A stretch of DNA of 64,000 nucleotides, from the NCBI RefSeq assembly GCF_008360935.1, contig NZ_SRXO01000026.1, forward strand, positions 1 through 64,000, in the 5' to 3' direction. The notes below the pieces were generated by a model, which made no database searches, was not told the origin of the DNA, and saw only the letters and a program-made list of their open reading frames with translations. A program made the position numbers and the translations under genes. Shown here piece by piece: positions 27,566 to 41,592 of the stretch; position 1 is the stretch's first letter; each line of letters begins with the position of its first letter. The stretch comes from Siccirubricoccus phaeus (GTDB lineage: Bacteria > Pseudomonadota > Alphaproteobacteria > Acetobacterales > Acetobacteraceae).

Positions 27566-28024
27566 TCAGCCCGCCGGCAGCCGGTAGAAGATGAAGCCGC
27601 CGATCTCGGCCGTTGGTACCAGCCCGACGGCCCAGCCCGGCAGTTCCTCCGCCAGGTGCCAATGGGTGGCGCCGCCGGTCGGGTCGCCCAGCACGCCGGC
27701 CGCGGCGCGGGCGGCGACGCGGCGGCAGGTCTCCAGCGCCGCATCCGCCTCGCCCGAGAGCATGGCGTTCAGCAGCGCCTTGCGTCGCGGGTGCTTCGGC
27801 ATCCAGCAGCCGAACAGGAAGGGCGCGCGGCAGACCAGGGCCAGCATCGGCGCCAGGCCGAGGCCCGGCGCCGCACCCGGGGCGTAGCGCGCGGCCGCCG
27901 TGGCATCCGCCGCGGCCAGCCGGGCGCGGTTCACCGCCAGCGCCGCCAACGCCTCGATGGCGCGGACCGGCTTGCTGCCGGCCTCGGCGCGGAGGGTGAG
28001 GGCGAGGATATCGGCGCCGGTCAT
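27566..28024 (-). CDS. Cell-wall hydrolase, SleB-like (phage-type endolysin)
   Basis: A 152-residue protein resembling the Hydrolase_2/SleB group of peptidoglycan hydrolases. An N-terminal LTLRAEAGSKP (with the catalytic-type glutamate after the LTLRA element) is followed by AALAVNRARLA, and the family's THWH-containing GGATHWHLAEELPGW lies near residue 120. It has no signal peptide, as expected for a lysin released by a holin. It overlaps the membrane protein gene upstream by 4 bp (ATGA), forming a lysis pair at the downstream end of the podovirus-type cluster. Confidence 0.75.
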   Translation of the reverse strand: MTGADILALTLRAEAGSKPVRAIEALAALAVNRARLAAADATAAARYAPGAAPGLGLAPMLALVCRAPFLFGCWMPKHPRRKALLNAMLSGEADAALETCRRVAARAAAGVLGDPTGGATHWHLAEELPGWAVGLVPTAEIGGFIFYRLPAG

Positions 28025-28371
28025 GCCTCGTCCTCCTCGGCATGGCTGCGGTCGCGCAGCCGGGGCATGGGCTGGCCCAGGGGGGCGCCCAACCGCTTCA
28101 CTTCCTCGATCTTCTCCTCGATGCGCAGCAGATGCTGGGAAAGGCGCCGGTCCACGTCGCGGATGAGGGAGAGCGGGACGTAATTGCGCGCGACTTCCAG
28201 CTTGAATTCCGCCAGGTCGTCGCGGGTGCGGGTCACCGCCTCGGTCTCGCGCTGGTCGCTGCGGTCGATGCGGTCATGCATGTCCCGCCGCAGGCCGAGG
28301 ATCATGTAGAACAGCGCGGCGACGATCGGCGCCTCCACGGCGGTGATCCACCAGGTGGTTTCGAACGGCAT
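28021..28371 (-). CDS. Small membrane protein, holin/lysis-type
   Basis: 116 residues: one N-terminal transmembrane helix (ITAVEAPIVAALFYMILGL, residues 9-27), then a long charged, coiled-coil-prone region (about 29-95) and an acidic tail. No specific family is recognised. It is translationally coupled to the endolysin-like gene and starts after a good gaggag site, the usual place of a holin or spanin. Assignment as a lysis protein is from context and topology. Confidence 0.6.
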   Translation of the reverse strand: MPFETTWWITAVEAPIVAALFYMILGLRRDMHDRIDRSDQRETEAVTRTRDDLAEFKLEVARNYVPLSLIRDVDRRLSQHLLRIEEKIEEVKRLGAPLGQPMPRLRDRSHAEEDEA

Positions 28372-28444
28372 GGGGGCTCCTCGCTGCCTCCTTGAAGCGG
28401 GTGGGGGGGCCGCCCACCCTTCAGGCCGAAGGAGGGGCGGTGAT

Positions 28445-28669
28445 TTGATCGAATGGAACGAGCCCTATCTGGAGACCTGCTGCCGGTCGGCCCTGCACCG
28501 GCTGACCCTGGTCGGCGCGGTGGGACGGCCGGCGGGGCTGAAGGACGGGCCTTGCCTGCGGCGGCTGCAGGGGATGGGGCTGGCGGCGCAGCGGCCGGAT
28601 GGGCGGTACGAGCTGACGGAAGAAGGCGTGGCGCGGCACCGGAGCGAGATTCTGCGCCGAGCGGGTTGA
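28445..28669 (+). CDS. Small winged-helix-like protein
   Basis: A 74-residue protein starting at TTG 28445 after a ggaggggcgg site; longer in-frame starts lack support. The predicted pattern of three helices followed by QRPDGRYELTEEGVARHRSEIL is that of a winged-helix domain with its wing and last helix. It is divergent from the lysis genes and the only plus-strand gene inside the phage-type cluster, so it may regulate them. No named family is recognised. Confidence 0.55.
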   Translation: MIEWNEPYLETCCRSALHRLTLVGAVGRPAGLKDGPCLRRLQGMGLAAQRPDGRYELTEEGVARHRSEILRRAG

Positions 28670-28682
28670 GGGAGGGCCCTGC

Positions 28683-28858
28683 CCTCCTCGTTGGGCGCAG
28701 TGCGCCCAACCCCACCCGCAAAGGGCCGAAGGGCCCTTGGAACCCTTGAGTTTGGCGTTTCGACCGTCGCGCCTGAGACTGGTGGTTTCCAAAGGCCCTT
28801 CGGCCTTTGGCGGATCGGACGCACTGCGTCCGATGCGAGAGAGGGGCGGAGCCCCTCT
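28683..28858. repeat. GC-rich hairpin repeats (family F) after the small regulator gene
   Basis: Successive perfect hairpins: gttgggcgcagtgcgcccaac, aagggccgaagggccctt, caaaggcccttcggcctttg and ggacgcactgcgtcc. The same succession, inverted, lies at 47178-47262 after dcyD. The position, between the winged-helix gene and the terminase end, suits transcription termination. Confidence 0.6.
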
Positions 28859-28862
28859 CGAC

Positions 28863-28969
28863 CTAGAGCGGGATCGGTTGGGCTGCGCTCACCCGCCCCG
28901 CTCTAGCTCTTTGTTCGGTCGCGTGATTCACGGTTTCGGTCGATTCGACCTCAACCGATCACGCTCTAG
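28863..28969. repeat. Family A bipartite palindromic repeat, copy 3
   Basis: An exact 107-bp unit, CTAG at 28863-28866 to CTAG at 28966-28969, nearly identical to the 6414-6520 copy. The right CTAG supplies the TAG stop codon of the terminase gene on the minus strand. Confidence 0.85.
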
Positions 28970-30417
28970 CCTCCGTGCCACCCCTGGCCGCGTACCGCCG
29001 GCACGACTGCCGGCAGCCGCACCGGCTCCGCCAGCAGGCACCCCGCCAGCGCGTCCAGCGCATCGTCCCGGTTGCCGGCGGCGTCGGGCCGCCACGCCGC
29101 CATTTCCGCCGGAAAGGGCGTGCGGAACACGGCTTCATGCGCATGCAGCCGCCGCGCCGCCAGCGCCGGTTCCAGTGCGGAGAGGATCCGCTCCACCTTG
29201 GCCCGCCGGCTGGTGTGCTCGATCACCGTGCAAGGCGCCCCGGCCCGCGCCAGCTCCCGCCGCAGCAGCGCCGGCAGGAACCGCCCGAGGCCGTTGGTCT
29301 CGACGCGTACCACCGGCAGCAGCAACTCCCGCGCCAGGCTGGCCACGGCGCGGCATTGCTGCGTCGCCGGGTCGATGGCGGCATCCGGGTCATGCGTCAG
29401 CCACTGGATGCGGTGGAGGAAGTGGTTGCCCTCCCCATCCGCATAGGTGGCCGCCAGCACGGAGCCGTCGCCGGAAACGCCACGCGCCGGCGGCCGCCCG
29501 AAGGCCGGGTCCCAGAACCCGCCCCCCGAGACCAGCCGCCGCCCGAGTAGCAGCAATTGCGCCCGCCCGCTCGCCTCCCGGTACTCCGGCTCCTCCGCAT
29601 AGCGGATGAGCAAGGCGGGATCGAGCCGCAGCGCCGCCTCGGCGACCGCCTGCAGCAACATCTGCCGCGCGAAGCGATGCGGGCCGACGCGGCTGCGCAG
29701 CGCCTCGATCGCCGCCGCGTCGAAGCGCTCCGGCCAGGCGCTGTTCCCTGCCGCATCCAGCAGCGGCAGGGTGAAGCGCCGATAGCCGGCGAGAAACGCC
29801 TCCCCCTGCGAGGGATGCAAATAGAGCGTTTCCGCGCAATGCGGCGTGCCGATGTAGAGCACGGTGCCGCCGGGGACGAGCACGAACTCCACCTCGGCCA
29901 GCCGCGCCCGCAACTCCTCTCGCTTCGCCGGCGTGTCGCAATTGCCCGCCACCTCGACATCGTCGCAGATGACGAGGTCGGCGCGTGCGCCGGTGATGTT
30001 GCCGCCCAGCCCCTGGGCCAGCATGGACGGGTCCCGCAGCACGGCATCCCGCGCCACGGTGAAGCGGTCCATCGCCCAGTTTTCCGCGCCTTCCGGCAGC
30101 AACGGGCGACATAAGGGGTGACGTTCCAGGATGCGCCGGACCTGCGCCACCATCTTCACCGCCAGGGGCTGGTCCGCCGCCAGCACCAGGATGCGCGTCT
30201 CCGGCGCCCGCAGCAGCCGCCAGGCGCAATAGAGCCCGGTGAGCGTGGATTTGCCGCAGCCGCGGAAGGCCATCAGCAGCAGCCGCCGGTCGCCCGTCTC
30301 CCACCGCAGTTGCAGCCAGCGGGCGATGCGGCGATGCGGGGCCGGCGTGGTCTGGTTCTGGACGTGATTCCAGATCCAGACGAATTCCAGGAAGTCAGGC
30401 TCCGTCCCCTGGGTCAT
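28966..30417 (-). CDS. terL: Phage terminase large subunit
   Basis: ATP-driven DNA packaging motor and nuclease. The 483-residue protein has Walker A in MAFRGCGKSTLTG (residues 49-61), Walker B LVICDDVEV with acidic residues at 152-153, and a C-terminal RNase H-like nuclease with conserved acids in SGDGSVLAATYADG and RDDALDALAG. This is the Terminase_6/T7 gp19-like group. It overlaps the upstream small gene by 23 bp. The stop codon is formed by the end of a family A repeat, so the last residues may have been altered by its insertion, but the nuclease motifs are complete. Confidence 0.92.
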   Translation of the reverse strand: MTQGTEPDFLEFVWIWNHVQNQTTPAPHRRIARWLQLRWETGDRRLLLMAFRGCGKSTLTGLYCAWRLLRAPETRILVLAADQPLAVKMVAQVRRILERHPLCRPLLPEGAENWAMDRFTVARDAVLRDPSMLAQGLGGNITGARADLVICDDVEVAGNCDTPAKREELRARLAEVEFVLVPGGTVLYIGTPHCAETLYLHPSQGEAFLAGYRRFTLPLLDAAGNSAWPERFDAAAIEALRSRVGPHRFARQMLLQAVAEAALRLDPALLIRYAEEPEYREASGRAQLLLLGRRLVSGGGFWDPAFGRPPARGVSGDGSVLAATYADGEGNHFLHRIQWLTHDPDAAIDPATQQCRAVASLARELLLPVVRVETNGLGRFLPALLRRELARAGAPCTVIEHTSRRAKVERILSALEPALAARRLHAHEAVFRTPFPAEMAAWRPDAAGNRDDALDALAGCLLAEPVRLPAVVPAVRGQGWHGG

Positions 30418-30709
30418 CGGTTTCGGATTCCTCCTTCATCTCCGCGGCCATGAAAGAGCGGTACTTCGCCAGCGATTCCCCGATCTCCTGGAGCTGCGCC
30501 TCGTCCGCCTGCCCGGCGGCCAGCTTCAGCAATTGCTCGAGATGCGAGAGCGCGGCCTTGCCGGCGGTGTGGCGCCCGGCGAAGAGCTTGCTCGCGCCAT
30601 CTTCCTGCGTGGCCGGGTCGGCGGACATGAAGCGGTGATAGTCCGCGAGGATCAGCCGGGCGGATGCGACGAAATCCAGATCGATCTTCGCCCTGCGCTT
30701 GCCTGCCAT
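30395..30709 (-). CDS. Putative terminase small subunit
   Basis: A 104-residue, mostly helical protein (start MAGKRRAKIDLDF) with an acidic C-terminal tail. No family motif is clear. It lies directly upstream of, and overlaps by 23 bp, the large terminase gene, where T7-type phages keep the DNA-recognition subunit, and follows the tail fibre gene as in T7. The role is inferred from position and size. Confidence 0.6.
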   Translation of the reverse strand: MAGKRRAKIDLDFVASARLILADYHRFMSADPATQEDGASKLFAGRHTAGKAALSHLEQLLKLAAGQADEAQLQEIGESLAKYRSFMAAEMKEESETDDPGDGA

Positions 30710-30714
30710 CGGCG

Positions 30715-33036
30715 TCAGAGCCGCGGCTTCGCGGCGCGGACGAAGAGCGTCCCCGCATCGAGGTCGATCGGGTTCGAGGGGTGGCGGTTGGTGGCCCGCG
30801 CCGTCACCGTGCCGGTGGCGCCGGTGGTGGTGATGGCGGCGGTCCATTCGACGAAGGCGGAGGCCTGGCCGGTGAAGCTCGCCTGCACGAAATCGCCGTT
30901 CTGCACATAGGGCATCGTCACCGCCTGGATGGCGACGGCGCCGGCCGCGAGCTCCGGCGGGTCATAGGCCAGCGAGGCCGTCAGCTCCCGCGTGCCCCAG
31001 AGCCGGCCGGCGCCGGCCAGCACCTGCGGCGCTTCCGTCGCCGGCGCGTAGAGCCGCAGCGATTTCAGCACGGAGGCGGCATTGCCGCCGCGCACGCCGA
31101 TGACCGCGAAGGCGGCACTGGCATGCAGCGTGACGCGCTGCAGCCGGTTGAGCGCGACGCCGCCCGTCAGGCTGTCCAGATCCGCATTGCCTTCCCACCA
31201 GTAGGAGGGCGGGCCTTGCCAGGCGGTGTTCATGTTGGACCACAGCACGGGGGCGCTGTTGTCCAGCACGTTCTCCGCCGCGTCGAACTGCATGGCCATG
31301 GGCCGCAAGCCGCTGCCCTCCGCCGCCAGGAAGAACTCCTTGCAGGTGGTGCAGTCCACCACGAAGGCCAGCGCCCGGCTGGTCGGCAGCGTCACGGTAT
31401 TGGCGTTCAGCGTGACGGAGGAGAGGCCGGGAAAGCAGAAGCCCGTCAGGTCGGTCGGCGGCCCGGCAGGGTTGCCGGAGAGCACCGCCAGCCCCTCGAA
31501 GCCGGTGGAGGCGCTGTCCCAGCGGAAGGCGCGGCTGCGGACATTCGCCGCCTCCGCCACCAGCCGCGGGCTGCCGAGCGCCGCCGCCGCCTGGTGCAGC
31601 GGCAGCACCGTGCCGCCGGCGCGCGTCGCCGTGCCGGCATAATGCACCGCGCAGCCGGTGAAGCCATAGGTGCCGACATAGGCCACCTCGTAGCGCGCAT
31701 CCGAGAAGCCGGCGGTATGCCGCGCGACGAAGGGGGAGCAGGCTTCCATCCGCACGCCCTGCGCGATCAGCCCGCGGCCATCCACCTCCACCAGGAAGGG
31801 GATGGCGTCCACGGTGCCGGGCGTGCCCTGGCGTTGCAGCTCGAAGGCCGGGCCGGTGAAGAGATGCGCGTTGTGCAGCCGGTAGGCGCCCTCGGCGGCG
31901 GAAAGCCGCACGCCGAAGCGGCCCATGCCCGGGTTGGTGCCGGAGGAGCAGGCGAAATGCCCGCCGGCATGCCGCAGCGAATTCATCCAGGCGGCAGCGG
32001 TCGCCGTGCGCAGATCGAGGCCGATGCGGTTGTCGATGATGCGGCCGTAGCGCAGGTCGCTGTCCTCGCAGCCGCGCTGGTCGCCGAGGAGCTGCACGCC
32101 GATGGTGAAGCGCTCCGCCCGGCGGATCTCCACCTGGCAGGCATCGATGTTGCGGATGCGGATGCCGACATCTGCCTCGTCGATCCAGTCGCTTTGCAGC
32201 GAGCGATAGACGGCGAGGCCGAGATAGCTCTTGCGCTGGTTGTTGACCTCGCCGCCGTCGCCGAGGGTGAGCGCCGCCTGCCCGCCCGGCCCGGCATAGA
32301 GGATGGTGCCGCGCATCTGGATGCCGGCCGCCGCCCCCGGCAGCAGCAGCGGCAGGGTGGTGCGGAAGACGCCCTCCCCCACCTCCAGCAGCTTGCCGCT
32401 GGCCGCCGCGGCGTTCATCGCGGCTTGCAGGGAGGGGCCGTCATCCGTCACGCCGTCGCCGGTGGCGGCGAAATCGCGGGCGGAGAGGCGCTCCGCCAGC
32501 TTGTCCTCCACGGTGCGCGGCACGCCATCCGGGAAGGGCACGCTGATCGTGCCCTCGCCGCGGTCGAACACCGTCAGGTTGCCGATGCTGTCGAAGCCCA
32601 GCAGCTTGTTCACCCGCCCGCCGCGCAGCGGCACCGTCGTCACCCCGCCGATATCGGAGGGGTCGAGCTGGATGGCATTGGCCATCTGTGCCTTCACCTC
32701 CTGCAGCGCGGCGATCTGGTAGTCCAGCTCATCATTCAGCGTGCGGGCGCGGAGGATGCCATTCTCCTGGAAATCCGTGATGCGCTCCACGGCCAGGTTG
32801 CGTCGCAGCGTCAGCACCGCGCCGGCACGCGGCGGCTCGGGGAATTCCACCGTGCCGCCGGTGCTTTCCCCCGCGCCGGTCACGGCGAAGCCGTAGCCCT
32901 GCACCAGCCCGTCCACCCGCAGCTCGAGGTCGGTCTCGGCGAAGATCGGGAAAGGGTAGGTGAAGCTGGTCTGGACGCCGTCCGCCACGTACTGCACGCG
33001 TGGCGCGACGTCGCCGATCTTGATGTGCTCGGCCAT
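30715..33036 (-). CDS. Tail fibre/tailspike protein (T7 gp17-like N-terminus, beta-helix body)
   Basis: 773 residues. The first 160 or so resemble the T7-type tail-fibre attachment domain (VQYVADGVQTSFTYPFP, FAETDLELRVDG, a coiled segment ELDYQIAALQEVKAQM). The pectate-lyase-type entry motif DFAATGDGVTDD follows at residues 188-199, leading into a right-handed beta-helix to about residue 480, then receptor- or glycan-binding sequence. It would bind and perhaps cleave surface polysaccharide of the target cell. It lies between the internal virion protein and the terminase genes, as in T7. Confidence 0.85.
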   Translation of the reverse strand: MAEHIKIGDVAPRVQYVADGVQTSFTYPFPIFAETDLELRVDGLVQGYGFAVTGAGESTGGTVEFPEPPRAGAVLTLRRNLAVERITDFQENGILRARTLNDELDYQIAALQEVKAQMANAIQLDPSDIGGVTTVPLRGGRVNKLLGFDSIGNLTVFDRGEGTISVPFPDGVPRTVEDKLAERLSARDFAATGDGVTDDGPSLQAAMNAAAASGKLLEVGEGVFRTTLPLLLPGAAAGIQMRGTILYAGPGGQAALTLGDGGEVNNQRKSYLGLAVYRSLQSDWIDEADVGIRIRNIDACQVEIRRAERFTIGVQLLGDQRGCEDSDLRYGRIIDNRIGLDLRTATAAAWMNSLRHAGGHFACSSGTNPGMGRFGVRLSAAEGAYRLHNAHLFTGPAFELQRQGTPGTVDAIPFLVEVDGRGLIAQGVRMEACSPFVARHTAGFSDARYEVAYVGTYGFTGCAVHYAGTATRAGGTVLPLHQAAAALGSPRLVAEAANVRSRAFRWDSASTGFEGLAVLSGNPAGPPTDLTGFCFPGLSSVTLNANTVTLPTSRALAFVVDCTTCKEFFLAAEGSGLRPMAMQFDAAENVLDNSAPVLWSNMNTAWQGPPSYWWEGNADLDSLTGGVALNRLQRVTLHASAAFAVIGVRGGNAASVLKSLRLYAPATEAPQVLAGAGRLWGTRELTASLAYDPPELAAGAVAIQAVTMPYVQNGDFVQASFTGQASAFVEWTAAITTTGATGTVTARATNRHPSNPIDLDAGTLFVRAAKPRL

Positions 33037-33144
33037 GTCGGGCTCCGATATCTCGGTTGCGGCGCAGGCGTGGCCGTGTGGGGCTGCGCCTGGTCAGGGG
33101 GCGCCGGCGCCTCCCGGCGGGGAGGCGCGCCGGGGCGCCATGGG

Positions 33145-33585
33145 TCAATCCAGCAGGCTGCGCGCGGCGCTGCCGAGGGTGCGGCCGCTGCGCAGCAGCG
33201 TGGTGAGGGTGCCGTCCGGCTGCAACAGGCTGGCGCGGCCCCGGGCGAGCTGCGCCTGGTAGGCCTCCTCATCCGCTGCCTGGGCGGCGGCGGCATCCTG
33301 CTGCAGCCCGCCGGTGACGGCGGCGGCGGAGCCTTCATCCGGCTGCGGCCCGCTCGCCGCCAGCCGGGCGCGGGTGGCGGCGACGGTGCGGGCCAGATCC
33401 TGCTGGCGCCGGCGCGTCTGCTCCTCCTGCTGCACCGCCAGCTCCTGCTGCCGGGCCGCCTGCTGCTGCTGGGCGATCTGCGCCTGCGCCCGCGCCGTCG
33501 CCTGCTGCGACTGCTGCTGACGCACGGTGCCGTAGACGGTAGCGCCCGCACCGAGCACGGTGGCGAGCGAGGCGAGAGAAGCCAT
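33145..33585 (-). CDS. Small internal virion protein (T7 gp14-like)
   Basis: 146 residues. A short hydrophobic/small-residue N-terminus (MASLASLATVLGAGATVYG) precedes a long glutamine- and alanine-rich coiled coil (about 22-70) and a variable C-terminus. This architecture is shared with T7 gp14-type core/ejection proteins, and the gene sits between tubular protein B and the tail fibre as gp14 does. Its ATG overlaps the upstream stop by one base. Sequence identity to gp14 cannot be asserted by eye. Confidence 0.6.
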   Translation of the reverse strand: MASLASLATVLGAGATVYGTVRQQQSQQATARAQAQIAQQQQAARQQELAVQQEEQTRRRQQDLARTVAATRARLAASGPQPDEGSAAAVTGGLQQDAAAAQAADEEAYQAQLARGRASLLQPDGTLTTLLRSGRTLGSAARSLLD

Positions 33586-35465
33586 CAGTCGGTGATCCTC
33601 GTCTCGGTGGTGACGGAAAGCAGCGTCATCGGCAGCGGCGTCGCATCCTCGATCCGCCAGAGCGGCGCGAGCGCGTCCCGCTTCCAGCCGATGGCGCGGA
33701 GCTGCACATCGCCGGTGAAGCGTTGCGGCGCGGCATCCAGCAGTGGCGTGCCGAGCCGGCGGAAGGAAACCGGCGTGCTGCCGCGGCCGAGATCGACCGA
33801 GAGCGCCGCGCTGTCCAGCAGCCGGAAGGTGACGGAGACCAGCCGCAGCGGCGCCGCCTTGACGCCGGTGACGGTGGCGAGGTCGGGCGGCAGCGGCTCG
33901 ATCACATGGCTGAAGGCGAGGCCGGCCTGCAGGGTCAGCGCGCCAGGGTCGATGGTGACGGCGCCGTTCGAGACCAGGGCGGACTCGCGCGGCGCACCAT
34001 CTGCCAGGATGCCGACGGTGCGGCCATCCAGATGGCCGAGCCCGGACCAGCTTTCCTGCGGCGTGGCGCTGCTGCCGGTGAGCGCCGCATCCAGCGCCAG
34101 AGCCGGGTCGAAGCGTTCCAGCCGATGCGTGCCGCCGCGCTCCACCACCGCCCAGACGGTGCCTTCGATCTCGGCCAGGGCAAGGAACAGCCCGTCCGTC
34201 TCCTGCCGCGTCCAGGCGGTGACTTCCTCGGCGCGGTAGAGCGTGAGCGTGGCGAGGCCGCCATCGGCCATCGCCACGTGCAGCAACCGGCGAATCTGGT
34301 CGTAGCACATCGCCACCGGGTCGCGGACCAGGTGCTGCGCCGCCAGCGCCAGGTCATTCGCCTGATAGACCTGCTGCAGGTCCGTGTAGGTGAACTCATA
34401 GACGCCGCGGCCGCTGCGGGAGACGAAGATGGTGGAACCATCGACATCCACCGGCGCGATCATCCGCGCCACCGGCGAGCCGACCCGCGTCTGCCGGTTG
34501 AGCTGGATGGAGGCGGGGGTGAGCGGCGCGCCGCTGACCATCCACTCCGCGCCGGAGGTGAAGACCTGGAGGTGCAGGCCGGAGAAGACGCCGCGGATTG
34601 CATTCACCTGGTCGGAAACCAGGCCGAAGGCGATGGACTGGTCGTCGAGCCCGGTGCCGGTGTCGAAGTTGAAGAGATCGCCGGAGCGCGAGAGCCAGAG
34701 CCGGTTCGGCAGATCCCGCGAACCGCCGATCACCAGCCGGTCCTGGTGGAAGCAGAGGCAGACCGGCCAGCCGCGCACGGCGGAGAAGGAGGCCTCGTCC
34801 CAATCCGCGGTCGCCGCGGTGCCGGGGAGCACTTCCTCCACCGAGGCCGTCGCGGAGGTGGCGGTGGCGACGGCGGTGACCAGCACCCGCTTGCCGCCGA
34901 GGCGGAAGCGCGTGCCGACATGACCAGGCAGGAAGGCGGCGGCGGAGGCGGTCAGCGCTACGCTGCCGCTGGTGCCGGAAGGCGTCAGTGTCGTCGCGAT
35001 GTCGCTGAAGCGGAAGAAGGGCTCGTAGAGGAAGCTCCAGGCCGTCACGCTCCAGCTTGTATGGCTGCTGCGCGTCACCTTCTGCGGCACCATGTCCGGA
35101 TGGCAGAGCAGCAGCGTGTCCGCGCTTTGGGTGAAGGCGAGCTGCGGCAGCATCGCCGCTGTCCAGGGGCCGCTGATCTGCGCCACCTGGTCGTCATTAA
35201 TGAAGACCCGTAGCTGACCCGCGGTCAGCACCAGCAGGTAGGTCTGCTCGGTGTTGAACTCGAAGGGGATCAGCCGGGCAGGGCCGGGGAGGGTCATCAC
35301 ATGGCGCAGCCCGGGGCGGCGGGTGACGCCGCCCGTGGGCTGGATGAAGACGTTGCGCAGCCTGCGCGCGCCATTGGCCCAGGCGCGCAGATCCGGCCGG
35401 CCGAGCAGTTCGGGCGCCACCTCGCCGGCGGCGAAGCTGGTCTTCAGGATGCGGGACTGGGCCAT
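33585..35465 (-). CDS. Tail tubular protein B / stabilisation protein (T7 gp12-like)
   Basis: 626 residues beginning MAQSRILKTSFAAGEVAPELLGRPDLRAW, the conserved opening of phage tubular/nozzle proteins. GARRLRNVFIQPTGGVTRRPGLRHV and IPFEFNTEQTYLLVLT follow, then beta-propeller-like repeats (DRLVIGGSRDLPNRLWLSRSG, YDQIRRLLHVAMADGG). It would form the tail nozzle below the adaptor ring. ATG 35465 directly follows the previous stop (TGAGATG). Family assignment is strong; the number gp12 is by synteny. Confidence 0.87.
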   Translation of the reverse strand: MAQSRILKTSFAAGEVAPELLGRPDLRAWANGARRLRNVFIQPTGGVTRRPGLRHVMTLPGPARLIPFEFNTEQTYLLVLTAGQLRVFINDDQVAQISGPWTAAMLPQLAFTQSADTLLLCHPDMVPQKVTRSSHTSWSVTAWSFLYEPFFRFSDIATTLTPSGTSGSVALTASAAAFLPGHVGTRFRLGGKRVLVTAVATATSATASVEEVLPGTAATADWDEASFSAVRGWPVCLCFHQDRLVIGGSRDLPNRLWLSRSGDLFNFDTGTGLDDQSIAFGLVSDQVNAIRGVFSGLHLQVFTSGAEWMVSGAPLTPASIQLNRQTRVGSPVARMIAPVDVDGSTIFVSRSGRGVYEFTYTDLQQVYQANDLALAAQHLVRDPVAMCYDQIRRLLHVAMADGGLATLTLYRAEEVTAWTRQETDGLFLALAEIEGTVWAVVERGGTHRLERFDPALALDAALTGSSATPQESWSGLGHLDGRTVGILADGAPRESALVSNGAVTIDPGALTLQAGLAFSHVIEPLPPDLATVTGVKAAPLRLVSVTFRLLDSAALSVDLGRGSTPVSFRRLGTPLLDAAPQRFTGDVQLRAIGWKRDALAPLWRIEDATPLPMTLLSVTTETRITD

Positions 35466-35466
35466 C

Positions 35467-36036
35467 TCAGCCCCGCGCATTCAGCAGCGGGAAATCCTCG
35501 ATGCCGCGCGGCGTCGCCTGCTGGCTGTCCGCCTGGCGCGCGCTGCGGAGCTCCGCCTCCGCCTGGTTCAGCAGAAGCTGGGCGCGGGAGGTGTTCTCGG
35601 TCAGCGGGATGCAGAATTCGGCGGCAAGGCGCGTGGCCAGCGCGGCGGCGAAGAAGGGCGGGAAGGCGGCCTCCACCGGGCGGAAGATGTAGGAGAGGAT
35701 GACCTGCTCCGCGCTGCAATGCAGCCGGTCCTCCAGGATGCGGTAGACCAGGCCGCGGCCGCTATTCGGCGTGCCGGCGGAGAGGGCGCGGAGGAAATCC
35801 ACGGGGAGCTGGAAGGCGTGGTCGAAATCCGCGGTCGGCCGGGCGGAGAGCCGCGGCAGGGCGGCCTGGGCGGTCGCGAAGCTCCACGGGAAGAGGGAGA
35901 GCAGGGCGTCGCGCACAGCCGGGTAGAGATTCGCCGCCACCTCGGCCTCGGCGGTGCCTTCATCGAGCGAGGCGATCGGCTGTGCGCCGATCTTCAGCAG
36001 CGCGCGCGAGCAGAGCGCGAGGGCGGAAAGGGCCAT
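35467..36036 (-). CDS. Tail tubular protein A / head-tail adaptor (T7 gp11-like)
   Basis: 189 residues with the typical gp11 profile: ALALCSRALLKIGAQPIASLDEGTAEAEVAANLYPAVRDALLSLFPWSFATAQ at the N-terminus (the DALL...PWSFA signature) and a C-terminal QAEAELRSARQADSQQ region. It forms the ring between portal and nozzle. It is directly upstream of the tubular B gene with a 1-bp gap. Confidence 0.85.
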   Translation of the reverse strand: MALSALALCSRALLKIGAQPIASLDEGTAEAEVAANLYPAVRDALLSLFPWSFATAQAALPRLSARPTADFDHAFQLPVDFLRALSAGTPNSGRGLVYRILEDRLHCSAEQVILSYIFRPVEAAFPPFFAAALATRLAAEFCIPLTENTSRAQLLLNQAEAELRSARQADSQQATPRGIEDFPLLNARG

Positions 36037-36072
36037 TTGGGGCTCCGGGCAGGCGGGAGGTGGAAAAGGAAG

Positions 36073-36166
36073 GGCCCACCCCCACCCCGACCCTCCCCCG
36101 CATTGCGGGGGAGGGAGTGCGGCAAGCCCTCCCCCGCTGGCGGGGGAGGGTTGGGTGGGGGTGGCC
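36073..36166. repeat. Large GC-rich inverted repeat between capsid and tubular A genes
   Basis: Two nested hairpin units (ccctcccccgc / gcgggggaggg, twice), enclosed by outer arms cccacccccacccc and ggttgggtgggggtgg, give one roughly 94-bp imperfect palindrome. It lies in the gap after the capsid gene, where T7 has its main late terminator, so a partial terminator or processing site that favours capsid expression is possible. Confidence 0.55.
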
Positions 36167-36178
36167 AGGCCGCGCGAA

Positions 36179-36202
36179 CTATTCCTTGGCGCGCATCCGC
36201 AA
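36179..36202 (-). other. In-frame repeat of the capsid C-terminus after its amber stop
   Basis: The capsid frame ends RMRAKE then TAG. The next seven codons in the same frame read LRMRAKE and end in a second TAG. The two RMRAKE copies differ at three synonymous third positions (gcg/gcc, aaa/aag, gag/gaa). Either an old duplication or a minor readthrough extension; nothing here distinguishes them. Confidence 0.6.
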
Positions 36203-37036
36203 CTACTCTTTCGCGCGCATGCGCACGACGCCGGTGTTGTCCACCAGCACCGCGCCCTGGCTCATCATGGTGTTGACGAAATGCGCAGCGCGGTCGCCAT
36301 GCCAGGTGACGTCCGTGGTGATCTCGGACGCCACGGCGTGGCCGACCGCGCTCTTGTGGTAGAAGTAGCAGTAGCGCAGCGTGCCGCTCAGGGTCAGGCC
36401 GCTATGCGGCATCCAGGTGGCGCCCAGCCAGCGCTTCGCCTGGGTGCCCTTCCAGGGCAGCTCGTCCGGACCGATATAATCGGCATTGGCGAATTCCTGG
36501 ATGGTCAGCAGCTCGCTCCACTGCTTCCAGCCGACCACCGCGAAGCGGTTGCCATCATCCGGCACGTCCGCATTGCCCAGCGCCTGGAAGGCCAGCAGCA
36601 CCTTGGCGCGGGTCAGGCCGTCATTGTCGGTCTCGCCGCTGTTGGTGCCGATCGCCTCGACCGTGCCGCTGTCCAGCGCGGCGATGATCAGCTCGTCCGT
36701 CTTGCGGCCCAGCGCATAGGCCCCGGCATTCGCCACCACGGCGCGCTCATCGATGTTGGTCTTCAGCTCGTCCAGCCGGTCGATCCAGTCGCCGGCGTAG
36801 TAGTCCTGCAGGAAGCATTCGACGGCGGTGTGGTCGATGTTCATCACCGGCACCACGCCGTTGCGGGCCTTCGCCGCCGCGGTGCCCTTGCCCACCTTCT
36901 GGAAGATGGTGGAGGCGCCGCGGACATCGGATTTGCTGCGCACGCTGGGGCGCAGCTTGCTGCCGTGACGCTGATAGGCCTCCTGCACCTCGGCTTCGTA
37001 TTGCTTGATGAAGGCCTGGTCGATGGAAGCGGACAT
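36203..37036 (-). CDS. Major capsid protein
   Basis: 277 residues, smaller than T7 gp10A (345). HK97-fold-type features are suggested: N-terminal YEAEVQEAYQRHGSKLRPSVRSKSDVRG, then DHTAVECFLQDYYAGDWIDRLDELKTNIDERAVVANAGAYALGRKTDELIIAAL and RFAVVGWKQWSELLTIQEFANADYIG, a pattern found in capsids of podovirus-type prophages of alphaproteobacteria. A strong aaggaaggac site precedes the ATG at 37036, in keeping with high expression. It lies between scaffold and tubular A genes. Confidence 0.85.
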   Translation of the reverse strand: MSASIDQAFIKQYEAEVQEAYQRHGSKLRPSVRSKSDVRGASTIFQKVGKGTAAAKARNGVVPVMNIDHTAVECFLQDYYAGDWIDRLDELKTNIDERAVVANAGAYALGRKTDELIIAALDSGTVEAIGTNSGETDNDGLTRAKVLLAFQALGNADVPDDGNRFAVVGWKQWSELLTIQEFANADYIGPDELPWKGTQAKRWLGATWMPHSGLTLSGTLRYCYFYHKSAVGHAVASEITTDVTWHGDRAAHFVNTMMSQGAVLVDNTGVVRMRAKE

Positions 37037-37366
37037 GTGTCCTTCCTTTCACGATGGGGGCGGAAGCGCCGCCGCCACGGTTGGCCGCGTTCGCGGGCCG
37101 GACGGCTGCGCGCGGCCATGGCCCGCACGGCGCGGCGCCTTGCGGGTTGGTCATGGCCGTGAAGGGAGGGGGCGGGCGATGCGACAACGGCCGCGTCACG
37201 CGAGGCGGGTGGCGCCTGCGTCGGCAGGGCGCGCCTCGGCGCGGCCGGGCATCCGCCCGCCCCCGGGCGCCGCGCCGCGAGGAAGGCGGCGGGCGCCCGC
37301 GGCAGGGCGAGGGCGCTGTGGGGGAGGGGGCAGCGCGCACTCCAGCCCTGCCGGAGAGGGTGGGGG

Positions 37367-37496
37367 CCTGGTGCCCTGCCCGCTCCTTCGCTGCCATGGC
37401 AGCGAAGGAGCAGATAAGCAGGACCCTCAAACAAAGGCTGGTGCCCGATCCGAAGGGCGCCGCGCCAACGGCGAACTTCGGAAGCGGGACATCAGG
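37367..37496. repeat. Family C bipartite palindromic repeat, copy 2
   Basis: A unit of about 130 bp from cctg to cagg (degenerate CTAG ends) with a perfect first hairpin, cttcgctgccatggcagcgaag, the linker tcaaacaaaggctggtgccc, and a second hairpin pairing ccgaag with cttcgg. It matches the layout of the copy at 60841-60962. It lies in the 467-bp gap between the scaffold and capsid genes; the other 330 bp (37037-37366) are GC-rich with no convincing gene. Confidence 0.65.
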
Positions 37497-37503
37497 CCTC
37501 GGC

Positions 37504-38253
37504 TCAGTTGCCGACCAGGCGGCGGAAGCCCTCGGTCACGCGGCGGACGAAGGCCGGGTCCCGCTGCCGCCAGTAGCGCGGGTCGCGCATCATGGCGCGC
37601 AGCTCGCTCTCGCTCTCGGCGGTCTGCGGCGCGGCATCCCGGCTAAGGCCCGGCTCCTCCTTCCGCATCATCTGCTCCAGGGCGAGCACGCCATCCGCGG
37701 TGCTGGCCAGCGCGCCGTAGACGCCCTCCGGCAGCTTCGCGCGGCCCCAGGCGGAAAGCTGCGCCGCCACCTGGCGGAACCGCTCCTCGCCGCCGAAATG
37801 CGCCATCAGCTTCTCGCGCTGCCGGTCGGCCTCGTACTGCGCTGCGGCCTCGGCGATCAGCGGCAGCAGCCGCTCCGCCGCCAGATCGTAGACGAGCTGC
37901 GCCTGGTCCTGGGTGAAATTCGCCTGGTGCAGCCGGCCATTCACCTCGTCGTCGGAGCAGCAGAGCGCATGCGGCGGGGTGATGCTGTAGCCCTCCGGCG
38001 CGTCCGGGATGCCCATGGCCTGGCGGAAGCGCAGCAGGTCCTCCGGCGCCGCATCGGCAGCCGGCGGGCCCATGCGCTGGGAGAGGCGGCGCTCCAGCTC
38101 GCGGTAGGATTTCAGCAGGGCGTCGACGCGCAGCGCGCCGGTCTCGGGGTCGCGGAATTTCTCCGGCACATCGGTGGGGGCGGGACGCGGGGCGGGCGCG
38201 CTGCCCTCCGGCGCGGAAGACTGGTCCGGCGACTGCAGCAGATCCTCAGGCAT
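37504..38253 (-). CDS. Capsid assembly scaffolding protein
   Basis: 249 residues, proline/alanine-rich N-terminus then VPEKFRDPETGALRVDALLKSYRELERRL, a helical pattern characteristic of scaffold proteins of T7-type phages. MGIPDAPEGYSITPP and an acidic/helical C-terminus with basic ending (RRVTEGFRRLVGN) that would contact the capsid follow. It overlaps the portal gene by 8 bp and precedes the capsid gene, the order of T7 gp8-gp9-gp10. Confidence 0.82.
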   Translation of the reverse strand: MPEDLLQSPDQSSAPEGSAPAPRPAPTDVPEKFRDPETGALRVDALLKSYRELERRLSQRMGPPAADAAPEDLLRFRQAMGIPDAPEGYSITPPHALCCSDDEVNGRLHQANFTQDQAQLVYDLAAERLLPLIAEAAAQYEADRQREKLMAHFGGEERFRQVAAQLSAWGRAKLPEGVYGALASTADGVLALEQMMRKEEPGLSRDAAPQTAESESELRAMMRDPRYWRQRDPAFVRRVTEGFRRLVGN

Positions 38254-39700
38254 GCGGGGTCACTCCCGGTTGGGCAGGGGGTTGAGCGGGGCTCGACAGC
38301 AGCACCTCGGCCGGGGCGCCGAGGGTGCGGGCCAGCCAGCGCGTGGCGGCGACGGCATCGACCTGGGCGGCCGCGCTGCCGCCGAGCTTGCCGACGGATT
38401 CCAGGAACAGCAGGGTATTCGCCGCATCCGCACGGCCCTGCACGCGGGCCAGCGGGCTTTCGTAGCGCAGCGCGACCTCCCGCCCATCGGCCACCAGCAG
38501 CGGCGGCAGCTCGCCCCGCCGGCGGAGGATGGCGAGGCAGCGCATGACGAGCGGCGTCAGCAGCTCCGTCTGCAAGCGGCCGTAAGTGGCGCCGAGCAGC
38601 CGCGCGGTCTGGGCGCTGCGTTCCAGCACCTCGGTCGCCGTCATCTTCGCGTCCTGCGCCGGGCCCAGCCGGTCCGCCAGCAGCGCGCCGCGGATGCGGG
38701 TGCGGAGATCCTCGAGCACGAGCTGCGAGACGTCGAAATTGCCGGGCGCGGCGAGCGGCGTCAGGCCGGCGCTGCCCGGTGCCTTCGGGATGATGGCGCC
38801 GGGGACCAGCTTGATGGTGGCGGGGTTCAGCACCCCGTCATCCTCCGCCTGCCAGATCCCGGTCGCGGCGATGGAGGCGTTCTTCAGAATCAGCTCCACC
38901 ACCTTGTTGGCGGTGCGGATATCCGGCAGCGCCTTCATCACCGGGCCGCGGCCGTAGAGTTCGCCCGGCACCTTCATCCAGCGGAAGGCGATGCAGGGAT
39001 TCTCCGCGAAGCGGCCTTCCGCCAAGGGCAGCGGCCGCAGCGGATCGTCGATCAGCAGGGCGTGGTAGCTTATGCCGCCGCGGTCCGGCTGCACCACTTC
39101 CAGCACCGGATGGGCGGTGGTGTCGCCATTCGCCGCCTCGCGCAGCAGTTCAGGCGGCAGCACTGCCTCGGGGAAGCGGCGGCGCAGCGCGGTGGCGGTC
39201 AGCCGGGCCTGGCGATAGACGATGGAAAGCCTGCCATCCGGCCCTTCCTCCAGCACCGCCATGCGCATCGGCACCGCGCTGAAGCGGAAGGCGGAGGCCT
39301 CGCCGAGCGGCGCTTCCTCCACCATCAGCAGCCCGGTGCCGGTGATGACCAGGTCGAGGAAGGCCTGGTGCATCTCGATCGCGAAGTTGGAGCGGTCGAA
39401 ATGCCGCTGCAGCGTATCCGCCGCATCCTCCAGCGCGAGCGCCGCAGCGTGGCCGCGGGCGGTATCCTGCAACGGCCGCGCGGGCGCCAGGCCGAACCAG
39501 CGGGACCAGGGCGGCGTCAGCTCCGCCAGCAGGGAGGCGGCGAGCTGCTCCACCGCATCGGCCGCCGTGGCGTCGAACAAAGCGGGGCCGTGCTGCGGCG
39601 CGGGCAGCACGTAGTCGTAGCAGGCCTGCCAGATCGGCTCGACCGGCCGGCGCCGTTCGAGGGCGCTGGCATGGCCGGCGAGGAGCGCTTCGGCGTCCAT
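38246..39700 (-). CDS. Portal / head-tail connector protein (T7 gp8-like)
   Basis: 484 residues of the podovirus head-tail connector family. It shows WQACYDYVLPAP, the FDATAADAVEQLAASLLAELTPPWSRWFGL block typical of this family, the GTGLLMVEE strand, GELYGRGPVMKALPDIRTANKVVELILKNA, and a C-terminal RLGPAQDAKMTATEVLERS stretch. It forms the dodecameric DNA gate. ATG 39700 is preferred to GTG 39709 for spacing to the gggaga site. It starts just after the small upstream gene's stop. Confidence 0.9.
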   Translation of the reverse strand: MDAEALLAGHASALERRRPVEPIWQACYDYVLPAPQHGPALFDATAADAVEQLAASLLAELTPPWSRWFGLAPARPLQDTARGHAAALALEDAADTLQRHFDRSNFAIEMHQAFLDLVITGTGLLMVEEAPLGEASAFRFSAVPMRMAVLEEGPDGRLSIVYRQARLTATALRRRFPEAVLPPELLREAANGDTTAHPVLEVVQPDRGGISYHALLIDDPLRPLPLAEGRFAENPCIAFRWMKVPGELYGRGPVMKALPDIRTANKVVELILKNASIAATGIWQAEDDGVLNPATIKLVPGAIIPKAPGSAGLTPLAAPGNFDVSQLVLEDLRTRIRGALLADRLGPAQDAKMTATEVLERSAQTARLLGATYGRLQTELLTPLVMRCLAILRRRGELPPLLVADGREVALRYESPLARVQGRADAANTLLFLESVGKLGGSAAAQVDAVAATRWLARTLGAPAEVLLSSPAQPPAQPGVTPHA

Positions 39701-39705
39701 CGGGG

Positions 39706-39954
39706 TCACTCTCCCAGCAGGGATTTGCGGGCGGCGGCGGGCAGGGTGGGCGCCGGGTCCAGCACGCCGCGGGCGGAGGTGGCGATGGTGCCGGCGATGC
39801 CGCGGGCGGCGCGGCTGCGGGCCTCGCTGCGCGCTTGGCTGGCGGCATCCGCCGCGGCAGCTTCGGCCGCGCTGATCGTCTCCGCGGGAGTGGGGGCGGG
39901 GGCGGGCGTCGGCTGGACGATCACCGGCCGCGGGGAACTGAACAGGCCACCCAT
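39706..39954 (-). CDS. Small proline/alanine-rich phage protein
   Basis: 82 residues starting MGGLFSSPRPVIVQP at ATG 39954, which is 9 bp from an aggagagg site; ATG 39960 is the alternative. A low-complexity PAPAPTPAE stretch is followed by an alanine-rich helix. No family is recognised. Small genes of this kind, starting MGxLFS, often precede the portal gene in podovirus-type prophages; it is the first gene of the structural operon after a promoter/terminator leader. Confidence 0.6.
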   Translation of the reverse strand: MGGLFSSPRPVIVQPTPAPAPTPAETISAAEAAAADAASQARSEARSRAARGIAGTIATSARGVLDPAPTLPAAARKSLLGE

Positions 39955-39996
39955 GCGCATCCTCTCCTGTCGGCAGGGCTCCGCGACCCCGGGCGC

Positions 39997-40043
39997 AAAA
40001 AAGCGCGGACCCGGTCCTTCACGGGGAAGGGCCGGGTCCGCGC
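39997..40043 (-). terminator. Rho-independent terminator in the leader of the phage structural operon
   Basis: On the minus strand the perfect 12-bp stem gcgcggacccgg / ccgggtccgcgc (40043-40032 with 40014-40003) is followed at once by TTTTTT (40002-39997). The loop itself holds a short ccttccccgtgaagg pairing. It lies 43 bp upstream of the first structural gene and downstream of a candidate promoter, so transcription must read through it. Confidence 0.8.
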
Positions 40044-40100
40044 CAAGGGAGGGGATCGGGAGGAAGGCCAGCGGGCGCAGTTCGCCCGTTGACGAGGAGG

Positions 40101-40129
40101 TTCTTAGCCGAGGATGCTGCGATGGTCAA
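40101..40129 (-). promoter_or_regulatory. Candidate sigma-70 promoter for the phage structural operon
   Basis: On the minus strand TTGACC (40129-40124, five of six to -35) is separated by exactly 17 bp from TAAGAA (40106-40101, three of six to -10), in one of the few A/T-rich patches of the window (40081-40190). Transcription would start near 40094, just before the intrinsic terminator. Confidence 0.45.
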
Positions 40130-40349
40130 GAAAATATTCTTAGGACCAGACGGAATTCCATAGCAGTGAATAAGCAGGTATTCCTGCAAACACAGAAACG
40201 GTGGAACGGCATCCGTGCCGTTCCGCCGCTGCGTGTGTCGGGGCGCTGCCCCCGAACCCCCGGCAGGAGGGCGTCGCGGGCAGCGCCAGCGACCCTGCAC
40301 CTCCGCCGGGACCAGGACCTTGGCCCCGGACCCCGGTCTGAGTTTTGGA

Positions 40350-40457
40350 CTAGAGCGTGATCGGTTTGAGGTCGAATCGACCGAAACCGTGAATCACGCG
40401 ACCGAACAAAGAGCTAGAGCGGAGCGGGTGAGCGCAGATCAACCGATCCCGCTCTAG
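40350..40457. repeat. Family A bipartite palindromic repeat, copy 4 (inverted)
   Basis: A 108-bp unit from CTAG (40350-40353) to CTAG (40454-40457), in the opposite orientation to the copies at 6414 and 28863. It shows the linker ccgaacaaagagctagagcg clearly. It interrupts a family D hairpin repeat: the sequence before it (gtctgagttttgga) and after it (gttcagcctgccgact) are the two halves of the D core. Confidence 0.85.
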
Positions 40458-40475
40458 TGGGTTCAGCCTGCCGAC

Positions 40476-40979
40476 TTACACCGGGGTCCGGGGAGGGAGT
40501 TGCCGGCACTGCCGCAACCACCGGCGGGGTGCAGGGGCAGAGCCCCTGCTGGGGGGTATGGGGGCGAAGCCCCCACGCTTCAGCCCCCGATACAGCCCAT
40601 GCGGCGTCACCGCGAAGGGCGCCCCACACCCCAGCACCGCCCGGCAGAACGAGACGCAATTCAACGGCCAGAGCGAGGGCAGCACGGACCAGCGCGGCCC
40701 GCCCGGCTGGAAGGGCCCCAGCACCGTCAGCCCCGCCCGGCGGTAGAAGCCCGGCAGGTCGAAGCCCGCCGGCAGATCCAGCCGCGTCAGCACCAGCCGG
40801 CCGGAGAGCGGGTCCGCCACCAGCCAGCCGCCCGCCTCCTCCAGCGCCGCGAAGCAGTGGCGGAAGCCGGGGCGCAGCAGGCGCAGCCAAGGCAGCTCCG
40901 CCGCCCCGCCGAAGGCGATGTAGACGCGCTGCCCCGCCGCCCCGACAGCCCGCCCGTGGGAAGGCCGTGCCCGGATCAC
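40476..40979 (-). CDS. Hypothetical phage-cluster protein, possible permuted NlpC/P60-like hydrolase
   Basis: 167 residues from GTG 40979, which overlaps the upstream stop (GTGA). A histidine in PGFRHCFAALEEAGGWLVADP and a later cysteine in PLNCVSFCRAVLG recall circularly permuted NlpC/P60 (LRAT-like) enzymes, in which His precedes an NCxxF cysteine; this is inference from two motifs. If true it could be a peptidoglycan or lipid hydrolase acting in entry or lysis. The last 30 or so residues are encoded by a GC-rich hairpin repeat, so the natural C-terminus has probably been changed. Confidence 0.6.
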   Translation of the reverse strand: MIRARPSHGRAVGAAGQRVYIAFGGAAELPWLRLLRPGFRHCFAALEEAGGWLVADPLSGRLVLTRLDLPAGFDLPGFYRRAGLTVLGPFQPGGPRWSVLPSLWPLNCVSFCRAVLGCGAPFAVTPHGLYRGLKRGGFAPIPPSRGSAPAPRRWLRQCRQLPPRTPV

Positions 40980-41407
40980 GGCCGGTGGCCCGGGAAGGCC
41001 AGCACCTCCGCCGGCTGCGCCACCGGCAGCGGGCCGGCGACGATGCCCTTCACCCTGAGCGGCCAGTCGAGCCGCGAGATCGCCTCCCGCCATAGCCGCC
41101 AATCGCCCTTCTCGCTGGCATAGCGCGGGTCCGGCGCCGCCTGGCGCTCGCCCCAGATCCGCAGGATGCGGGCATGCTGCAGGTCGATCCGCCGCTGGCG
41201 GTAGAGCCGGTCCAGCGCCTTCACCACATCGTCCGGCTCACAGGGCCGCTGCACCAGCCCGGCGCCGGAGACGATGCGGGCGCCGTCGCGCCGGGCGATG
41301 AGGGCGGCCATGGTCCAGAACCAGACCTCTTCCGTGGTGTCGAAGGGCTGCATCCGGTTGGGTGTATTGCGGACGGGGGCGTGTCCGGGGCGGGCGGCGG
41401 TGGTCAT
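40976..41407 (-). CDS. Hypothetical protein, first gene after the S24 regulator
   Basis: 143 residues. The middle contains TTEEVWFWTMAALIARRDGARIVSG and PDDVVKALDRLYRQRRIDLQHARILRIWGERQAAPD, a helical, basic region that may bind nucleic acid or form an assembly surface. No family is recognised. It is divergent from the S24-type repressor across a 185-bp gap with repeated ggaacgt motifs and overlaps the next gene by 4 bp, so it heads a two-gene transcript probably under repressor control. Confidence 0.6.
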   Translation of the reverse strand: MTTAARPGHAPVRNTPNRMQPFDTTEEVWFWTMAALIARRDGARIVSGAGLVQRPCEPDDVVKALDRLYRQRRIDLQHARILRIWGERQAAPDPRYASEKGDWRLWREAISRLDWPLRVKGIVAGPLPVAQPAEVLAFPGHRP

Positions 41408-41432
41408 CGGGGGCTGTCCTTCGCGCCAGGGT

Positions 41433-41467
41433 GGAACGTTTCAGGAACGTAAACCCAGGGTTGTTCC
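41433..41467. promoter_or_regulatory. Candidate operator cluster between the S24 regulator and the phage-cluster genes
   Basis: Two direct ggaacgt copies 11 bp apart (41433-41439 and 41444-41450) and an inverted ttgttcc (41461-41467) lie 26-60 bp upstream of the minus-strand gene start at 41407, where a repressor would block transcription. One helical-turn spacing of the direct copies supports cooperative binding. No experimental consensus is known to me. Confidence 0.4.
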
Positions 41468-41592
41468 CAAGGCAAGCACGAAAAAGGAAAATTCGCCTAT
41501 TGATCCCCGACTCCGAACCTAGGATGTTATGCCCAGGTCAAGCCCCCATATCTAGGGCCACCCACCCATTGCGCTGAACCGAGGAGCGGGAC

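Follow-up and report, generated by a model that had tools for sequence, protein, structure and literature searches.

A T7-type podovirus gene cluster in Siccirubricoccus phaeus and its relatives as a candidate gene transfer agent of Alphaproteobacteria

We analysed positions 1–64,000 of contig NZ_SRXO01000026.1 from the draft genome of Siccirubricoccus phaeus (GCF_008360935.1, G000 in our own labelling). This 64-kb stretch, the window, carries a minus-strand gene set of T7-type podovirus descent. Together with an S24-type regulator gene, profile searches place the set at 27566–42240, about 14.7 kb. Our results suggest, with a probability of about 0.68, that the set is a domesticated, vertically inherited and SOS-inducible podovirus cluster with the function of a gene transfer agent (GTA), independent of RcGTA. 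On the evidence of sequence, domestication is well supported, because the cluster is spread through the family and the class, no integrase was found in 42 family loci, nearly all of these loci have open reading frames, and the ratio of nonsynonymous to synonymous substitution rates (dN/dS, or omega) is well below 1 for most genes. A GTA is the most likely function; from the sequences we infer that particles form, that host DNA is their cargo and that this DNA is delivered.

Distribution, integrity and descent

The cluster is not a peculiarity of one strain. A near-full-length portal gene is present in 43 of 200 genomes of the same family (the window's own included), at 61–100% identity; G035 and G072 hold portal pieces only. 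At the level of the class, 45 of 385 genomes, belonging to 28 families, match the portal strongly, with 52–63% identity except for the window's own genome. Four further class genomes hold pieces, and a separate tail of matches at 24–49% represents other phages or distant relatives. A sample of the order gives the same picture, with any portal match in 123 of 395 genomes, other phages at 25–39% included. Outside the class, no portal match above 34% identity occurs in a phylum sample of 299 genomes. Among the best 80 of 546 matching stretches, named carriers include Azospirillum, Magnetospirillum, Paramagnetospirillum, Caenispirillum, Terasakiella, Rhodospira, Roseospira, Defluviicoccus and Micavibrio. 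Seven class loci (L225–L231) have portals at 43–49% identity and partial gene sets, and six of them come from genomes of 0.9–2 Mb. They may be earlier branches of this element or phages in their own right, and as more distant loci they were excluded from the member counts.

The original prediction, made from the letters of the window, described a minus-strand cluster of podoviral structural, packaging and lysis genes, and Pfam, PHROG and NCBIfam profiles bear this out. The cluster is real within the bounds first given, 27566–41407; those bounds fall short of 42240, where the cluster ends if the S24 gene is counted. A divergent S24 regulator does stand at its head. The small terminase (TerS) is also present, but in a different frame from the one proposed: the correct frame ends at 30395 and probably starts at 30709, and the overlapping frame 30414–30758 has no PHROG match. 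TerS takes its name from its position ahead of the large terminase (TerL). The features are the following.

41593–42240, plus strand: S24-type (LexA/CI-like) regulator, divergent from the block (Peptidase_S24, 1e-22)
41434–41448, minus strand: perfect alphaproteobacterial LexA box GTTC-N7-GTTC, upstream of h2
40976–41407, minus strand: h2, small helical protein, first gene of the block (found in 41 of 42 family loci)
40476–40979, minus strand: h3, small protein with an invariant His and Cys, start and C-terminus uncertain; possible cysteine peptidase/hydrolase
39706–39954, minus strand: small protein before the portal (phrog_831, 3e-7; 38 of 42 family loci)
38246–39709, minus strand: portal, the head-tail connector (Head-tail_con, 3e-125)
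37504–38253, minus strand: scaffold or capsid assembly protein (Phage_T7_Capsid, 1e-16)
36203–37036, minus strand: major capsid protein (Phage_capsid_2, 4e-81; phrog_3437)
35467–36036, minus strand: tail tubular protein A (phrog_394, 1e-48)
33585–35480, minus strand: tail tubular protein B, the nozzle (phrog_376, 1e-144)
33145–33585, minus strand: small internal virion protein, gp14-like (phrog_418, 1e-4; 40 of 42 family loci)
30715–33036, minus strand: tail fibre/spike (T7 tail N-terminus PF03906, 8e-6; pectate-lyase-like PF12708, 1e-3, below its cut-off)
30395–30709, minus strand: TerS, 104 amino acids, start inferred (phrog_31793, no function named, 3e-5; 40 of 42 family loci)
28966–30417, minus strand: TerL (phrog_38, 2e-80; NCBIfam termin_lrg_T7, NF033889, 416 bits against a cut-off of 150)
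28021–28371, minus strand: small membrane protein, holin candidate by position (phrog_29007, no function named, 3e-28)
27566–28024, minus strand: Hydrolase_2 (SleB/CwlJ-like) endolysin candidate (family profile in relatives)

Of the 42 family genomes other than G000 in which the portal is nearly full-length, 40 supplied a locus; with G217 and G333, these make up the 42 family loci. Two of the loci stop early at contig edges, and 40 extend past the scaffold. The portal profile lies in a single open frame in all 42. In all 40 of the longer loci, a single open frame spans at least 85% of the profile for scaffold, capsid, the two tubes, internal virion protein, spike and TerS alike, and the same is true of TerL in 39 of them. 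The membrane protein and the hydrolase are found in 37 and 36 of 42, respectively. Broken copies are a minority of those seen (G271, G344, G448, G483 and G072, with an internal portal stop in G568); one stop was flagged inside the portal match of each of G088, G104, G160, G044 and G038. The order from S24 through h2, h3 and the portal to the lysis genes is kept in most family and class loci. One locus is rearranged: in G603 (L222) the terminase and lysis genes precede the portal instead of ending the block. Only 13 of 80 named loci have the complete structural core, which is partly accounted for by our flank limit of 10 kb and by a split form of the cluster.

In this split form, seen in six genomes (G731, G606, G808, G649, G537 and G701), the cluster is interrupted after the scaffold. 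The capsid gene, in single copy, lies at a distance of 0.13–1.24 Mb or on a separate contig, and the genes for tubes, spike, TerL and hydrolase come after it in that order. We think that a virus could hardly live with its structural genes parted in this way, whereas a particle owned by the host can. The same split point is found in three families, f105, f51 and f151 (L318–L323 with L206, L207, L209, L216, L221 and L223), and both halves are kept.

The descent of the cluster follows that of its hosts. We compared a tree of concatenated portal, capsid, tube and TerL proteins with one of the host protein MnmG for 57 genomes (quick LG+G4 trees; G538 and G706 were left out of the set, and G154 and G196 had no convincing MnmG match). 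The two trees share 24 of 54 splits, against a random mean of 0.19 and a maximum of 3 in 1000. Structural branches that conflict with MnmG number 13 of 40 at a support of 80, 4 of 37 at 90 and none of 35 at 95. Structural and MnmG distances are correlated (r 0.86), and the median rate of the structural proteins is 0.95 times that of MnmG. For most block genes omega is below 0.45 in the 12 pairs compared, comparable to the neighbouring genes pyrD and EamA. In the closest pair, the values lie between 0.03 and 0.35, bar those of the internal virion protein and TerS, with 0.38 for EamA and 0.25 for PyrD. The spike has an omega of 0.11–0.39 in pairs outside the genus. Several values for TerS, the internal virion protein and the lysis genes were dropped, as their frames were unaligned (23–54% identity beside much higher neighbours). 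Judging from these trees and rates, the cluster is inherited vertically with the host and is kept by purifying selection in most of its genes.

The surroundings of the cluster are ordinary, as originally predicted. On one side lie bioY, an EamA transporter gene and pyrD, on the other mprF and a lysyl-tRNA synthetase gene. Ten further flanking open reading frames (ORFs) comprise nine with non-phage matches (metabolic genes, a class I lysyl-tRNA synthetase) and one without a match. The GC content of the block resembles that of its surroundings, and the 64-kb window holds no tRNA gene at all. No phage RNA or DNA polymerase, helicase, primase or integrase is found among the block and flanking ORFs scanned, a part of the window's ORFs. 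The claim that host repeats have settled in the gaps fared worse: the one repeat tested (40352–40383) has no second copy within the window.

The site itself recurs. EamA and/or pyrD adjoins the lysis end in 22 of the 37 family loci that offer at least 2.5 kb beyond it, and in 7 of 20 class loci with such room, from six families, pyrD lies at most 1.6 kb away on the same strand. Searching the 42 family loci with the integrases of two same-family prophages gave a best E value of 0.019, from a frame of 95 amino acids without a Pfam match, and nine frames from the larger gaps within the block in family loci include no integrase; the integrase search was confined to family loci. Real insertions in gaps are a nickel transporter in L073 and a CBS-domain frame in L048. 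The other frames tested are the scaffold itself or have no match, and most of the gaps flagged between internal virion protein and tail tubular protein A are artefacts of overlap with tail tubular protein B. The reading of the cluster as a podovirus-derived, GTA-like or domesticated element is thus supported: it occurs in many strains, no integrase was found beside it in relatives, its homologues are mostly intact, its order is largely kept and its dN/dS is low.

Control and packaging

In 63 of 92 loci, 31 of 38 family loci among them, the gap between the S24 gene and h2 contains a perfect box, either GTTC-N7-GTTC or GAAC-N7-GAAC. Of the 57 GTTC-oriented boxes, 54 sit 66–95 bp upstream of the h2 start, with distances measured to the profile-estimated start of h2 (or h3). 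In family loci outside the gap there are 10 such boxes per 755 kb. A set of named loci has the box in 35 of 68 gaps; the 92 loci include IMG/VR copies of sampled genomes or their relatives and the named set overlaps with them, so these counts are not independent. GTTC-N7-GTTC is the published alphaproteobacterial LexA site (PMC3091678). Of 22 carrier genomes, 21 have the same box ahead of lexA, the window's genome among them. Within the window alone, two LexA boxes against 0.5 expected are not rare; the box gains its weight from its conserved position.

The Ala-Gly cleavage site and the catalytic Ser and Lys of the S24 protein are present in 40 of 40 family copies. Among 101 class copies they are present in 79–85, and 10–11 of the remainder are alignment gaps. 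An S24 protein is also known to control a GTA in Caulobacter: RogA (CCNA_00080, 213 amino acids, a helix-turn-helix and an S24 domain) is the GTA repressor there and is said to be without the key cleavage residues (PMC9632790). The block protein resembles RogA in its S24 domain and its length (215 amino acids) but has those residues. Presumably, LexA and the S24 protein both repress the cluster. As a strict marker of the block the S24 gene was rejected, since orthologues occur in genomes without a portal match. Orthologues with 75–77% identity are found in the same-family genomes G010, G018, G020, G062 and G124, none of which has a portal match. This suggests either that the cluster was lost and its regulator left, or that the S24 protein has a second role. 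Relatives at 52–62% identity are found in 9 of 15 tested genomes with an RcGTA marker.

We propose that the cluster would work as follows. DNA damage would activate RecA, LexA would come off its box ahead of h2, and the S24 repressor, encoded divergently, would undergo self-cleavage. The genes from h2 and h3 through the portal to the lysis pair would then be expressed. Scaffold, capsid and portal proteins would build heads, and TerL with a non-specific TerS would load these with fragments of host chromosome. After short, spiked tails had been attached, the membrane protein and the hydrolase would lyse the producer, and sister cells would take up the DNA.

Some of these steps can be compared with the genes themselves. 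A residue check finds the Walker and nuclease residues of TerL intact and conserved among aligned copies, hence packaging should work. Since the cluster has no replication genes to serve, its likely cargo is host DNA. The hydrolase of the window has a weak Hydrolase_2 match (0.0014, below the cut-off). Among 21 aligned relatives, 19 match PF07486 at E values of 0.01 or less, the best being 2e-24; the motif residues are more variable than those of TerL.

There is no room at the locus for a T7-like gp15/gp16 ejectosome, as the internal virion gene ends at 33145 and the spike starts at 33036. The protein h3 may be a cysteine hydrolase and a possible stand-in for the absent wall-degrading ejection protein. 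Its His and Cys are invariant in 149 of 149 aligned copies, and its AlphaFold model (mean predicted local distance difference test score, pLDDT, 86) has as best VIA match the cysteine peptidase 3kw0, a middling one (Z 6.1, 99 of 130 residues). The best match in a Foldseek search was no better than E 0.3. For h2, there is no match in Pfam, PHROG or NCBIfam and no PDB fold match at E values of 0.001 or less.

Known particles and related phages

RcGTA is siphovirus-like, whereas the portal, scaffold, tail tubes and TerL of this cluster are of T7 type. To our knowledge, the classified alphaproteobacterial GTAs descend from other virus types. The RcGTA marker GTA_TIM (PF13547) is found in 36 of 385 class genomes, and none of these 36 carries the set; 4.6 would be expected by chance (P 0.006, in a test that ignores the relatedness of genomes). 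It was found neither in G000 nor in the 45 class carriers or the four genomes with fragments, and we therefore rejected membership of the RcGTA group. In the family sample, all three GTA_TIM carriers are without the portal. We take two of the carrier genera, Azospirillum and Magnetospirillum, to belong to orders tabulated without RcGTA-like clusters. No such clusters are tabulated for Acetobacterales, Azospirillales and Rhodospirillales (PMC6821227).

Particles that might be the product of the cluster have been reported from one of these genera. Treatment with mitomycin C is reported to make Azospirillum lipoferum, and also strain B510, release particles of about 10 kb (PMC3899980, citing a paper of 2008), and those of A. 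lipoferum 4B are said to contain random host DNA and to be a GTA rather than a phage (PMC3899980). The authors guessed in 2012 that a region with an RcGTA-like gene order was responsible (PMC3899980). The particles are induced by DNA damage, as the LexA box predicts for our cluster, and other Azospirillum species carry it. The cluster may encode the particles of A. lipoferum with about 10 kb of DNA.

We did not find a podovirus-type GTA of Alphaproteobacteria in the open-licence literature in PMC, which leaves most subscription papers outside. Faecalibacterium lies outside the Proteobacteria. Its FpGTA, reported in January 2026, is GTA-like and thought to be podovirus-like (PMC12946183); it is organised in two loci, lysis genes included, as in this cluster, a likeness that goes by description only. 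Another paper concerns a different podovirus lineage, and neither "gene transfer agent" nor "Rhodospirill" occurs in its text (PMC10386132). GTAs as a kind are known; a T7-type, widespread and vertically inherited one in Alphaproteobacteria was not found in the open-licence PMC literature and is apparently new.

Four podoviral prophages from the same family (in G332, G044, G047 and G221) show what a conventional relative looks like. Their portals are 36–39% identical, and they share homologues of scaffold, capsid, tail tubes and spike, as well as an h3-like gene near the portal. Downstream of tail tubular protein B or the internal virion protein they encode proteins of about 790–1560 amino acids. 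Four of these were tested, and one each in G047 and G332 has a transglycosylase domain and a PHROG internal virion match. Integrases, sought in G332 and G044, are present in both (that of G044 is below the Pfam cut-off and clear in PHROGs), and G332 has a Toprim primase. No integrase, primase or transglycosylase protein of the prophage type was found in the conserved cluster.

Phages proper are more distant. In the two best annotated records, podoviruses of Pelagibacter and Methylophilales, the portal homologue extends over 96% of the length at 35% identity or less, and the genomes measure about 34–35 kb, as opposed to a set of about 14.7 kb without replication genes. No phage record has a portal above 51% identity. 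At 51% is the portal of MT838907.1 (L111, 5084 bp), an unannotated "Bacteriophage sp." scaffold from human faeces on which the portal gene is accompanied by the small gene and by those for scaffold, capsid and tubes. This scaffold may represent GTA-like DNA that was packaged, or else it may stem from a host, a gut alphaproteobacterium. Relatives in IMG/VR are all on contigs of 16.2 kb or less among the 80 listed of 161. These viral contigs hold pieces of the cluster, hence the cluster is probably being counted as virus.

Competing readings and consequences

Several observations weigh against a domesticated GTA. The missing gp15 and gp16 mean that DNA delivery into a Gram-negative cell would need another route. 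A perfect LexA box is lacking from 29 of 92 gaps and from 33 of 68 in the named set, and the S24 gene occurs without the block too. Some loci lack the hydrolase or have an incomplete one, TerS is poorly conserved, and outside the family the split-form loci match the spike mainly in its N-terminal third. A number of the portal matches carry a flagged single stop, and part of these were checked. EamA or pyrD was not seen at the lysis end in 15 of 37 family loci, and the structural branches that conflict with the host gene at supports of 80 and 90 also have to be counted here. For the internal virion gene, omega reaches 0.89 in the closest pair, at 82% identity. The spike is 56% identical to that of one congener, with an omega of 0.62, where the portal is 86% identical; a fast-changing spike is expected of a killing particle as well. 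The contig belongs to a draft, and helper genes may lie elsewhere in the genome. Finally, no lysis by mitomycin C was seen in A. brasilense CBG497 (PMC3899980); other strains named A. brasilense carry the block, among the best 80 of 546 stretches.

The alternative that survives best, although we consider it unlikely, is a domesticated particle for which PBSX is the comparison case: induced by the SOS response, it would pack host DNA or none and kill competitors instead of moving genes between cells. The SOS box with its divergent, potentially autocleavable regulator, the lysis pair in most loci and a spike that can diversify faster than the rest would suit such a particle as well, and so would the missing ejectosome proteins, which the prophage comparators do not lack. 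However, the cluster retains both subunits of the terminase together with the head genes, none of which is obviously needed for killing, and TerL and the head genes are under purifying selection, with the TerL residues intact. A tailocin was rejected, as head and terminase genes are kept.

It is quite improbable that the cluster is a particle module for defence or piracy, whose proteins hinder infecting phages or supply other elements. Structural genes without replication genes would fit this role, and related podoviral prophages do circulate in the same family. Interference needs only parts, though, and what is kept is a complete assembly line, usually with lysis genes.

Slightly less credible still is a temperate or satellite-like podovirus that is active and has its genes for replication and integration in another part of the genome. 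The genome is a draft, our scan for helper genes was limited to the locus and its flanks, and RcGTA-type elements are known to be multi-locus. Against such a virus speak the absence of phage records above the portal identity already given, the lack of an IMG/VR relative on any contig longer than 16.2 kb (again among the 80 listed), the host-like tree and the recurrent site. A prophage confined to one strain or recently inserted was rejected in view of the wide spread, the host-like tree and the conserved order and site.

A decaying or recently acquired defective prophage without function is strongly disfavoured: the broken copies named above, the portal stop in G568 and the viral contigs of up to 16.2 kb that hold the set would fit it, but nearly all of the 42 family loci have open frames, omega is low, the trees are congruent, the same site is used in different genera, and both halves are kept after splitting.

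Returning to the domesticated GTA, a more far-reaching version of it is tentative and, in our estimate, falls somewhat short of an even chance. Under this version the cluster is a second, independent and very old alphaproteobacterial GTA, which arose by a single domestication from a T7-type podovirus near pyrD in the ancestor of Rhodospirillales, Azospirillales and Acetobacterales. It would have been kept where RcGTA is absent, it would be switched by LexA and S24 in the SOS response, and its minimal tail would do without an ejectosome. It would also work when split over two loci and would make the A. lipoferum particles.

If the cluster is a GTA, the old Azospirillum particles would gain a concrete gene set and an inducing condition, and the class would have a minimal natural podovirus particle without ejectosome proteins. 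The cluster fills the gap left by RcGTA with an unrelated type of virus in a complementary distribution (0 of 36 overlap). Hence, GTA-like domestication would have recurred within one class. Such recurrence would suggest that the trait itself is beneficial, rather than that one virus has persisted.

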